Source of the DNA: an uncultured Candidatus Melainabacteria bacterium
GTDB lineage: Bacteria; Cyanobacteriota; Vampirovibrionia; Gastranaerophilales; Gastranaerophilaceae
NCBI GenBank assembly: GCA_949915775.1
Contig: CATLEG010000003.1
Location: 1 to 55,607, forward strand
Reading direction: 5' to 3'
Length of the DNA: 55,607 bases
The notes below the pieces were generated by a model, which was given only the letters and a program-made list of their open reading frames with translations, searched no databases and had not been told where the DNA came from. This document shows, one piece after another, positions 6,684-11,193 of the stretch. Made by a program: the position numbers and the translations under genes. How positions within the stretch are numbered: position 1 is the first letter of the stretch; each line of letters begins with the position of its first letter.

Positions 6684-6711
6684 TTGAAATTTCTTAAAAG
6701 AGAGTTATAAT
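6684..6711 (+). promoter_or_regulatory. Antisense-RNA promoter, peptide unit copy A
   Basis: TTGAAA, 16-nt spacer, TATAAT. It faces into the 3' end of the small peptide gene on the minus strand. The same TTGAAA-16-TATAAT arrangement is found at the equivalent place in copies B and C. Confidence 0.65.
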
Positions 6712-6717
6712 ATAAAT

Positions 6718-6812
6718 ATAAGGGCGAGAGGATTGCCGTCCTCTCTTTAAAAGCCCCGTTAATTGGATTTAAGCACTAATATTATCAGTAAGATAAGCGT
6801 TAGTGCTTTTTC
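6718..6812 (+). ncRNA. Predicted antisense RNA, type I TA unit copy A
   Basis: About 95 nt. It has a 5' hairpin GAGAGGA/TCCTCTC (6726-6745) enclosed by GGGC/GCCC, then a second stem AAGCACTAA/TTAGTGCTT (6771-6808) followed by TTTTT, which is a Rho-independent terminator lying inside the peptide gene. It overlaps the 3' half of the peptide mRNA, as antitoxin RNAs of Fst/TxpA-type systems do. The ends are predicted from the promoter and terminator only. Confidence 0.6.
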
Positions 6813-6830
6813 AGTTATACTGAATTCCAT
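6759..6830 (-). CDS. Small hydrophobic peptide, putative type I toxin copy A (23 aa)
   Basis: A 23-residue peptide, MEFSITEKALTLILLIILVL then KSN: a short polar start, a single hydrophobic Leu/Ile helix and a basic end. This is the layout of membrane-acting type I toxins. The ATG (6828-6830) follows a perfect anti-SD match, AAAGGAGGTGAT (6835-6846). The mRNA leader can fold CTTTCG against CGAAAG, which includes part of the Shine-Dalgarno. An antisense RNA promoter sits just beyond the stop. Two related copies are at 10293 and 11043. Peptide expression and toxicity are inference. Confidence 0.6.
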   Translation of the reverse strand: MEFSITEKALTLILLIILVLKSN

Positions 6831-6908
6831 CTTCATCACCTCCTTTCGTCGTTTTACTGATTTATAGTCCGTTCGCCGAAAGCAAGGTAATTAGGCTTAC
6901 CCGCTTTT

Positions 6909-6937
6909 ATAATACATCTTGAACAAGAAAATGTCAA
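6909..6937 (-). promoter_or_regulatory. Sense promoter, peptide unit copy A
   Basis: TTGACA, 17-nt spacer, TATTAT, read on the minus strand; near-consensus. Predicted start near 6902 gives a ~70-nt structured leader that begins with the GGGTAAGCC shared by all three copies. Confidence 0.65.
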
Positions 6938-9652: not shown

Positions 9653-9856
9653 ATGATTAAAAATAATGTTTCATTATTAATAGGAATGAGAAAATTGACA
9701 ATAGCAGAAACTGCTAAGTTAGCAGGCTTGTCCTATAATACGGTATATAGCCTTTATCATGATGAGACGCTAGGTATAGAATTTTTAACTCTAAATAAAT
9801 TATGTAATGTTTTAGAGTGCTCAACAAGTGATTTGTTTAAACATATTCCAGACTAA
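9653..9856 (+). CDS. Small XRE-family HTH regulator, paralogue 1
   Basis: A 67-residue protein that is almost entirely a Cro/CI-type helix-turn-helix. IGMRKLTIAETAKLAGLSYN holds helices 1-2 and NTVYSLYHDET the recognition helix, then LNKLCNVLECSTSDLF. It resembles the YozG-like minimal regulators. A second copy with about 60% identity follows at 9960 on the same strand. There is no clear Shine-Dalgarno; TACAAT lies 6-11 nt upstream of the ATG, so the mRNA may be leaderless. It probably represses itself or neighbouring accessory genes. Confidence 0.8.
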   Translation: MIKNNVSLLIGMRKLTIAETAKLAGLSYNTVYSLYHDETLGIEFLTLNKLCNVLECSTSDLFKHIPD

Positions 9857-9959: not shown

Positions 9960-10163
9960 ATGTTAAAGAATAATATCTCTACTATTATTGGAAAACGAAA
10001 AATGAATATTGCAGAGACCGCTAAAATTGCAGGTTTAGGGTATAATACTGTTTATAATTTGTATTATGATAAAACGTCAGGTATCGATTTTGCAACAATA
10101 GATAAGCTTTGTCTTGCTTTAGATTGTACACCAAATGATTTATTATTATATATAGAAAATTAA
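9960..10163 (+). CDS. Small XRE-family HTH regulator, paralogue 2
   Basis: A 67-residue single-domain Cro/CI HTH, with IGKRKMNIAETAKIAGLGYN, NTVYNLYYDKT and IDKLCLALDCTPNDLL. It matches paralogue 1 along its entire length without gaps, so it is a tandem duplication with 103 bp between the genes. The recognition helix differs at few positions (NTVYSLYHDE against NTVYNLYYDK), so the operators may overlap. The first peptide unit promoter begins 14 bp after its stop, so a regulatory link to that unit is possible. Confidence 0.8.
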   Translation: MLKNNISTIIGKRKMNIAETAKIAGLGYNTVYNLYYDKTSGIDFATIDKLCLALDCTPNDLLLYIEN

Positions 10164-10177
10164 TATTTATCTAAATC

Positions 10178-10206
10178 TTGACTTATTATTAATTTGTAGA
10201 TATGAT
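10178..10206 (+). promoter_or_regulatory. Sense promoter, peptide unit copy B
   Basis: TTGACT, 17-nt spacer, TATGAT. The ~112 bp from here through the Shine-Dalgarno are identical to copy C, including the leader stem CTTTAC/GTAAAG (10240-10245 with 10272-10277) directly before the ribosome site. Confidence 0.7.
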
Positions 10207-10292
10207 TAAAATGGGTAAGCCCATTATCACAGTCCATAACTTTACGGAACAAACTATAAATTTGAATAACTGTAAAGAAAGGAGGTGATGAG

Positions 10293-10367
10293 TTGATAAT
10301 TGCAATTACAGCAAAAGAGTTAATACTAATCTTAACGATAATATTAACTCTTAAATCAACAAAATAG
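10293..10367 (+). CDS. Small hydrophobic peptide, putative type I toxin copy B (24 aa, TTG start)
   Basis: A 24-residue peptide, MIIAITAKELILILTIILTL then KSTK, starting at TTG 7 nt after the GGAGG of AAAGGAGGTGAT (10278-10289). The nearby ATG at 10288 stops after two codons. It is a single hydrophobic helix with a basic end, like copies A and C. The coding sequence contains an 11-bp perfect inverted repeat (10315-10325 with 10342-10352) that doubles as the antisense terminator. A second hairpin, GTGCGGA/TCCGCAC (10379-10398), follows the stop. Function as a toxin is inference from architecture. Confidence 0.58.
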   Translation: MIIAITAKELILILTIILTLKSTK

Positions 10368-10406
10368 GGGCTTTTAAAGTGCGGACTGCAATCCGCACGC
10401 CCTTAT
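10312..10406 (-). ncRNA. Predicted antisense RNA, type I TA unit copy B
   Basis: About 95 nt from the opposing promoter at 10413-10440. The 5' hairpin is the GTGCGGA/TCCGCAC stem. The 3' end is the 11-bp stem in the peptide gene followed by TTTT. It overlaps the 3' half of the peptide gene and its 3' UTR. The ends are predicted. Confidence 0.6.
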
Positions 10407-10412
10407 ATTTAT

Positions 10413-10440
10413 ATTATAACTCTTTTTTTATAAATTTCAA
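10413..10440 (-). promoter_or_regulatory. Antisense-RNA promoter, peptide unit copy B
   Basis: On the minus strand: TTGAAA, 16-nt spacer, TATAAT. Conserved in place and spacing with copies A and C. Confidence 0.65.
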
Positions 10441-10464
10441 CCCCTTTGATGTGGCACTTTTTTC

Positions 10465-10506
10465 AGATTAGTAGGTTGGGGCTTTTAGCCCAACAATTAT
10501 AATTAA
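10465..10506. repeat. 41-bp direct repeat with internal palindrome (left copy)
   Basis: Contains GTTGGGGC TTTTA GCCCAAC and recurs at 10876-10916 with one base fewer. The two copies flank a repeat-rich insertion and precede or follow the two tandem peptide units. Confidence 0.7.
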
Positions 10507-10875
10507 AGGAGCTATGCACCCCTTTCAACCCGTACAAAATATGTTCCCCTCCCTTGGGGGAGGGTGTCCGTAGGACAGGAGAGGGTTAATCATGTGGGGA
10601 TTATGCATCCCCACACCCAATAATTTCCCAGCAAACAACATGGTACTTTCTTGTACCGACAAGAAAGTACCGCAAAGAAGCTCTCGACCTACACTACACT
10701 CACTAATCAATTGTAATTGCTCAATCTAAAGCTCGCAAACTCACGTCATGCTGAACTAGTTTCAGCATCTCATAATAACTTATCGTTCAGACAATGCTCG
10801 CTTCGTTGTTATTTCGCAAACATTGATTGTTCGTTCCGCTAATGGTCGAACCATCAATACAAATTGCCACAAAGT
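10507..10875. repeat. Repeat-rich non-coding stretch between peptide units B and C
   Basis: No gene is supported here. It holds several perfect palindromes: TGTGGGGAT/ATCCCCACA (10593-10615) and GGTACTTTCTTGT/ACAAGAAAGTACC (10642-10671). It also has a CCCTCCCTT...GGGAGGG element near 10550-10585 and a copy of the GTCATGCTGAA...TTCAGCATCTC repeat (10746-10770). It appears to be a landing zone for short palindromic repeats. Confidence 0.6.
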
Positions 10876-10916
10876 AGATTAGTAGGTTGGGCTTTTAGCC
10901 CAACAATTATAATTAA
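10876..10916. repeat. 41-bp direct repeat with internal palindrome (right copy)
   Basis: Matches 10465-10506 apart from one G. It is followed 10 bp later by the copy C promoter, suggesting that the unit repeat plus TA was duplicated and then interrupted. Confidence 0.7.
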
Positions 10917-10926
10917 TATATTAATC

Positions 10927-10955
10927 TTGACTTATTATTAATTTGTAGATATGAT
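10927..10955 (+). promoter_or_regulatory. Sense promoter, peptide unit copy C
   Basis: TTGACT, 17-nt spacer, TATGAT, identical to the copy B promoter and leader. Confidence 0.7.
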
Positions 10956-11042
10956 TAAAATGGGTAAGCCCATTATCACAGTCCATAACTTTACGGAACA
11001 AACTATAAATTTGAATAACTGTAAAGAAAGGAGGTGATTTAG

Positions 11043-11114
11043 ATGATATTCGCAGCTAGCGAAAAAGCACTAATTATAATTTTAATAATCATAATAGTGC
11101 TTTCATTAATCTAA
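11043..11114 (+). CDS. Small hydrophobic peptide, putative type I toxin copy C (23 aa)
   Basis: A 23-residue peptide, MIFAASEKALIIILIIIIVL then SLI. Its ATG lies 8 nt after the GGAGG of AAAGGAGGTGAT (11027-11038). It shares EKAL plus a hydrophobic helix with copy A. The internal inverted repeat AAAGCACTA/TAGTGCTTT (11064-11103) matches the stem of copy A but not of copy B, although the leader is identical to B. The 3' hairpin GGGGCAAG/CTTGCTCC (11130-11151) differs from both. It runs convergently towards ilvC, so it is not an ilv leader peptide. Confidence 0.58.
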   Translation: MIFAASEKALIIILIIIIVLSLI

Positions 11115-11159
11115 AACGGGGCTTTTGAAGGGGCAAGCGTCAACTTGCTCCGCCCTTAT
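11061..11159 (-). ncRNA. Predicted antisense RNA, type I TA unit copy C
   Basis: About 99 nt from the promoter at 11166-11193. The 5' hairpin has a CTTGCTCC/GGGGCAAG stem. The terminator is the TAGTGCTTT/AAAGCACTA stem followed by TTTTT inside the peptide gene. The ends are predicted. Confidence 0.6.
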
Positions 11160-11165
11160 ATTTAT

Positions 11166-11193
11166 ATTATAACTCTTTTTTTATAAATTTCAA
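11166..11193 (-). promoter_or_regulatory. Antisense-RNA promoter, peptide unit copy C
   Basis: On the minus strand: TTGAAA, 16-nt spacer, TATAAT. Same as copies A and B. Confidence 0.65.

Follow-up and report, generated by a model that had tools for sequence, protein, structure and literature searches.

The unit designated copy A and its relatives are best explained as a chromosomal type I toxin-antitoxin-like module, and the probability of this reading was put at roughly 80% on the basis of sequence comparison. A conserved open reading frame (ORF), opposing promoters, two strand-specific hairpins, a 5'–3' pairing and a multicopy family were seen in the sequence. In the proposed mechanism, one strand would encode a membrane peptide of about 19–27 aa (up to about 40 aa in the other families of the order) on a structured mRNA. 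A strong promoter immediately downstream of the ORF would drive transcription of the other strand into an antisense RNA of about 95 nt. Because this RNA would end at an intrinsic terminator within the ORF, having covered the 3' UTR and the distal half of the reading frame, it would not reach the Shine-Dalgarno (SD) sequence. The 5' end and the 3' UTR of the mRNA would pair with each other, and the 3' strand of that pairing would be covered by the antisense RNA. By analogy with the AapA/IsoA system, as described in the consulted part of PMC6733600, the full-length mRNA would stay inactive until it lost its 3' end. The duplex with the antisense RNA would then lead to destruction of the mRNA by RNase III, the gene of which is present. 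Once the antisense RNA was exhausted, the peptide would enter the membrane and growth would stop.

We also favour, with somewhat less confidence, an overlapping code in which part of the toxin is dictated by the terminator of the antitoxin RNA. Through its bases, and even through the choice among synonymous codons, an early codon pair would set the residue allowed about ten positions later throughout the order, while a unit-specific 5'–3' pairing would separate up to 15 sibling units per genome. The peptide motif would then be largely a by-product of RNA termination.

Copy A and its family

The analysed stretch, called the window, is 55,607 nt long and comes from a genome of 2.04 Mb that is 98% complete. 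Inspection of the sequence located all of the parts that had been claimed for copy A, in the claimed order, and the matches of blastn to the family agreed. On the minus strand, the peptide-mRNA promoter TTGACA-17-TATTAT lies at 6909..6937 (TTGACA 6937-6932, TATTAT 6914-6909). It is followed by GGGTAAGCC at 6902-6894, assigned from the sequence and the pairing test as the mRNA 5' end and the 5' strand of the long-distance pairing. The SD sequence AAAGGAGGTGAT is at 6846-6835 and the ORF at 6830-6759, encoding the hydrophobic 23 aa peptide MEFSITEKALTLILLIILVLKSN, an assignment based on the sequence and on coding constraint across the family. Downstream on the same strand are GGGGCTT (6751..6757), the 3' strand of the long-distance pairing, whose partner is the leader AAGCC; the hairpin GAGAGGA-CGGCAA-TCCTCTC (6726..6745), kept as a sense-strand structure and probably the mRNA 3' end; and GCCC (6722..6725), the partner of the GGG of the 5' end. 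On the plus strand, the antisense promoter TTGAAA-16-TATAAT occupies 6684..6711 (TTGAAA 6684-6689, TATAAT 6706-6711), and the antisense intrinsic terminator lies within the ORF at 6771..6811, with arms at 6771-6779 and 6800-6808 and a T-run at 6807-6811. From the positions of this promoter and terminator, an antisense RNA of about 95 nt was predicted at 6719..6812. The whole unit sits downstream of a GGGtGRT gene.

Two further copies are found on the plus strand of the window, the first about 3.3 kb from copy A. Copy B spans 10178..10440, with the ORF at 10293-10367 (MIIAITAKELILILTIILTLKSTK, TTG start) and the antisense promoter at 10413-10440 on the minus strand; copy C spans 10927..11193, with the ORF at 11043-11114 (MIFAASEKALIIILIIIIVLSLI) and the antisense promoter at 11166-11193, again on the minus strand. 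The tetrapeptide EKAL is shared by the peptides of copies A and C, as had been noticed. Each copy contains AAAGGAGGTGA once, which accounts for all three occurrences in the window (0.02 in shuffles), and TTGAAA-16-TATAAT without mismatch is found in the window only at the three copies. When the three were aligned, the surroundings of the antisense promoter were among the best-conserved stretches. The blastn search with copy B matched copy A at 3.7e-31 and detected further units on contigs C33, C1 and C63. Between copies B and C (10450-10910), a GGTTGGG(G)CTTTTAGCCCAACAATTATAATTAA motif stands close to each end, perhaps a scar of the duplication that formed the two copies.

With copy A as the query, blastn gave matches in 23 of the 33 genomes of the genus. 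From 74 places examined, 49 full units were cut out and 43 were aligned; the six omitted were at contig ends, nearly identical to others or carried a long insertion. Eight loci (L009, L011, L090 and L093-L097) were excluded, the blast match being limited to a promoter-like stretch. A covariance model made from the 43 aligned units was positive in 28 of the 33 genomes at E up to 0.01, with a maximum of 15 matches per genome and 10 in the genome of the window. The order Gastranaerophilales had 145 positive genomes out of 286, distributed over 33 of 50 genera. A sample of the phylum served at the same time as a negative control: 94 of its 386 genomes were positive and all 94 belong to Gastranaerophilales. 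Genomes of other families, searched again, gave matches in nine of nine, and 31 of the weaker matches were read by eye. Tandem arrays with a spacing of about 300 bp were observed in several genomes (G078, G082 and others). The search of the genome and its relatives suggested by the sequence-only reading thus yielded further copies on other contigs and in many genomes of the genus and order; neither an absence of further copies nor a lack of conservation of copy A in close relatives was found. The idea of an amplified family is supported, as is the older split of copy A from copies B and C.

The Rfam search, at the gathering score and at E up to 1, yielded tRNAs and otherwise nothing above chance level; the highest-scoring of the chance matches, IMES-2 at 10374-10500, was rejected at 18.5 bits against a cut-off of 54.7.

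The two promoters differ in strength. At least 10 of the 12 consensus bases were present in the antisense promoter of 107 of 121 units (1.7% in shuffled sequence) and in the peptide-mRNA promoter upstream of the leader in 35 of 95 (3.8% shuffled). A second form of the antisense promoter, with TTGACA and AATAAT replacing TTGAAA and TATAAT, was seen in otherwise similar units (L034, L040, L059, L064, L065, L071, L072, L073, L079 and L083). A small HTH_26 (PF13443) gene lies less than 100 bp from 9 of 57 units in eight genomes, where 0.56 were expected, and in eight of the nine it abuts the antisense-promoter side in the antisense direction (sites include G014:C3:130708-130887, G024:C1:71673-71861, G027:C1:204805-204981, G028:C12:162638-162823 and G032:C1:93100-93267). 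Two HTH_26 genes are also located upstream of copy B in the window, at 9653-9856 and 9960-10163. The gene may constitute a second layer of control.

Hairpins, terminator and long-distance pairing

On the antisense strand, the copy A ORF gives a hairpin with a TTTTT run behind it. The analysis of this stem was based on the 43 units found with blastn, which had not been picked by structure. The arms of the stem covary: one pair is G-C in 23 units and A-U in 20, and the next is C-G in 25 and A-U in 10. Taking the three helices jointly, 87.8% of the cells were paired and the covariation score was 0.357 against 0.161 after shuffling; as a control, sliding the partners by one to three columns gave a covariation of at most 0.105. 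The consequence for the peptide appears about ten positions after an early codon pair, where GCG-CTA goes with Ala, GCA-CTA with Val and GCG-TTA with Thr. Among the stem partners, CAC stands with GTG (Val) in 11 units, CGC with GCG or GCA (Ala) in 16 and AAC with GTT or GTC (Val) in 9; in the remainder, CGT stands with ACG (Thr) in 5 and AGT with ACT (Thr) in 2. The mutual information between the codon pair and the later residue was 1.47 bits, and shuffling gave a mean of 0.16 and a maximum of 0.51. The same value of 1.47, against a shuffled mean of 0.21, was obtained with 75 distinct ORFs including those found with the model, and the terminator stem was present in the ORF of 118 of 120 units; these larger counts are not wholly independent of the stem because the units found with the model were chosen partly by it.

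Since the bases of the codon pair fix the later residue, EKAL is, as read from the nucleotides, the antisense U-run together with a stem arm, and its conservation would largely result from its encoding the antisense terminator. In the other families of the order, the stem lies at a different place in the ORF and in quite different sequences, for example in KKELVDILTLF. As a natural example of how a transcript from the opposite strand can constrain a coding sequence, the units would be unusually clear.

The strand on which each hairpin acts was assigned from its wobble cells. Where the sense strand has G opposite T, pairing is possible only in the sense RNA; where it has A opposite C, only the antisense RNA can pair, as G-U. 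Among the 43 units, A-C cells outnumbered G-T cells by 24 to 4 in the ORF stem, whereas the 3' hairpin had 19 G-T and 5 A-C. A stricter finder, applied to 120 units with each distinct stem counted once, detected the ORF stem in 118, of which 110 also had the 3' hairpin; its counts, which include related units and are therefore not independent events, were A-C 81 and G-T 23 for the ORF stem and A-C 9 and G-T 41 for the 3' hairpin (Fisher 1e-12). This finder was adopted after the result of a looser first one, which pointed in the same direction more weakly (ORF stem A-C 101 and G-T 67; 3' hairpin G-T 103 and A-C 75). The opposite bias of the two hairpins holds in all three counts, and it points to selection of each hairpin on its own strand, the ORF stem in the antisense RNA and the 3' hairpin in the sense RNA. 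The comparison of A-C with G-T cells is a simple strand test for hairpins and could reveal other small ORFs with antisense terminators.

The mRNA 5' end of copy A, GGGTAAGCCC, can pair with GGGGCTT and GCCC, which flank the 3' hairpin. This pairing was scored in 115 usable units of 121, collapsed to 75 distinct tails. The score was 17.2 with the unit's own leader, 14.7 with the leaders of other units (p 5e-11) and 12.8 with shuffled leaders (p 7e-29). Compensatory changes also support the pairing of the 5' end with the 3' UTR, and divergent units in the genome of the window have their own matching pairs, such as GATGCCT/AGGCATC and CCTGTAT/ATACAGG. A duplex-energy matrix of ten units showed no preference for their own 5'–3' pairs. 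Masking of the SD sequence by folding did not exceed that with shuffled flanks (0.220 against 0.249 unpaired; lower in 51 of 94).

The peptide and the history of the copies

Under a first-start rule, an ORF of 17-45 codons follows the SD sequence in 116 of 121 units, although in L078 the rule evidently chose a wrong frame, and 112 of the 116 peptides are strongly hydrophobic. The ratio of nonsynonymous to synonymous changes was 0.26, and the hydrophobic core is retained while the sequence varies. These results bear on the view that the unit is a pair of structured non-coding RNAs with an accidental ORF. The strong RNA structure on both strands would suit it; the strong SD sequence, the regular presence of the ORF, the retained core and a nonsynonymous rate that stays low outside the stem arms (0.32) leave it a negligible probability. 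One locus, L220 (562-732 on the minus strand; G000:C5:36561-36731), has all the RNA parts but lacks an ATG, GTG or TTG at the position of the ATG in its neighbour, which lies 270 bp away; it is perhaps a silenced copy or one with an unusual start.

Searches of the peptides against Pfam and NCBIfam gave nothing over the cut-off, the one weak match being to TatA at 14.2 bits against 90. The lack of a match to a known toxin family in these libraries agrees with an explanation that uses the same RNA logic, in which the peptides are non-toxic small membrane proteins, for instance regulators of membrane complexes, and the cis-antisense RNA sets their level. The HTH_26 gene abutting many units would also suit such a regulatory circuit. 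We nevertheless consider this explanation unlikely, given the many divergent copies per genome, their turnover, tandem arrays and decay, and peptide promoters that are weaker than the strong antisense ones. Many divergent copies with turnover and an antisense promoter stronger than that of the peptide are more usual in toxin-antitoxin modules.

The sequence-only reading had also considered the family mobile, and this part was not supported. At the GGGtGRT loci of the genus, a unit adjoins the gene in 3 of 30 (the window, G024 and G031) and is absent in 27, and the units of G024 and G031 at this site encode a peptide of the B type, not the A type. An array of four copies follows the GGGtGRT gene in G078, which belongs to a different genus. 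The unit-less site of G032 keeps short stretches matching the interior of the ORF and the unit end, like the remains of a deletion; therefore, loss by deletion fits better at this close relative. Other broken copies were found in G010, G014 and G032. Comparison of one site across three genomes showed neither a target duplication nor a recombinase going with the unit. Carriage of the unit by a mobile element or an insertion-like repeat, with the peptide incidental, would account for the multiple copies and the patchy occurrence at this locus; it is very improbable in view of the fragments at the unit-less site and of units that contain no transposase or recombinase and show no target duplication at that site. 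Two exact patterns, a weak test, gave 0 and 0 occurrences in viral contigs. The tandem arrays and decayed copies indicate that copies have been born and lost over time; they do not demonstrate transposition. Two units, L069 (G024:C9:18465) and L039 (G031:C1:333513), have nearly the same leader and 3' part with different peptide types, which suggests that the ORF segment was exchanged between units.

Comparison with known systems

At the level of architecture, the units resemble AapA/IsoA of Helicobacter pylori. In the consulted part of its description (PMC6733600), that system has several chromosomal copies, a small membrane peptide, a cis-antisense RNA that acts on the 3'-trimmed toxin mRNA, and a long-distance pairing between the 5' and 3' ends of this mRNA, to which the own (17.2) and cross (14.7) pairing scores here correspond. 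The same part describes masking of the SD sequence of AapA3 by anti-SD strands, whereas masking in the present units is unsupported by folding. The units also differ in that their peptides, compared through the Pfam and NCBIfam libraries, match no family, and in the residue-fixing antisense terminator inside the ORF, which is not a feature of AapA/IsoA as described there. Likewise, a limited and partial literature search found no ORF whose residues follow an antisense terminator.

As in txpA/RatA, bsrG/SR4 and Fst/par of Gram-positive bacteria, summarised in the consulted sections of PMC4147584, the two RNAs would converge and overlap at their 3' ends, leaving the SD sequence uncovered by the antisense RNA. 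However, in those sections the antisense RNA of txpA/RatA does not overlap the toxin coding region, while the one predicted here ends inside the ORF. Fst/par shares a bidirectional terminator outside the coding region; here the antisense terminator is in the ORF and the two strands use separate hairpins.

In the Cyanobacteria phylum, msoT1/MsoA1 of Microcystis aeruginosa was reported as the first candidate type I system, and six of the ten antitoxins predicted there overlap the CDS and the 3' UTR, similarly to the present units (PMC12390103, consulted sections). Two transmembrane helices are predicted for MsoT1, whereas the unit peptides look like a single one. Long-distance pairing, Melainabacteria and covariation between ORF and terminator go unmentioned in these sections, and a partial literature search found nothing linking type I toxin-antitoxin systems with Gastranaerophilales. 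If the reading as a toxin-antitoxin-like module is true, type I-like modules would also occur, in many copies per genome, in the gut-dwelling relatives of cyanobacteria that do not photosynthesise.

The Ibs/Sib pairs of Escherichia coli, in the consulted sections of PMC4147584, also have very short hydrophobic peptides and several chromosomal copies, and were first noticed as a repeat. Sib extends over the entire ORF together with the ribosome binding site, whereas the antisense RNA predicted here would stop within the EKAL codons, before reaching the SD sequence.
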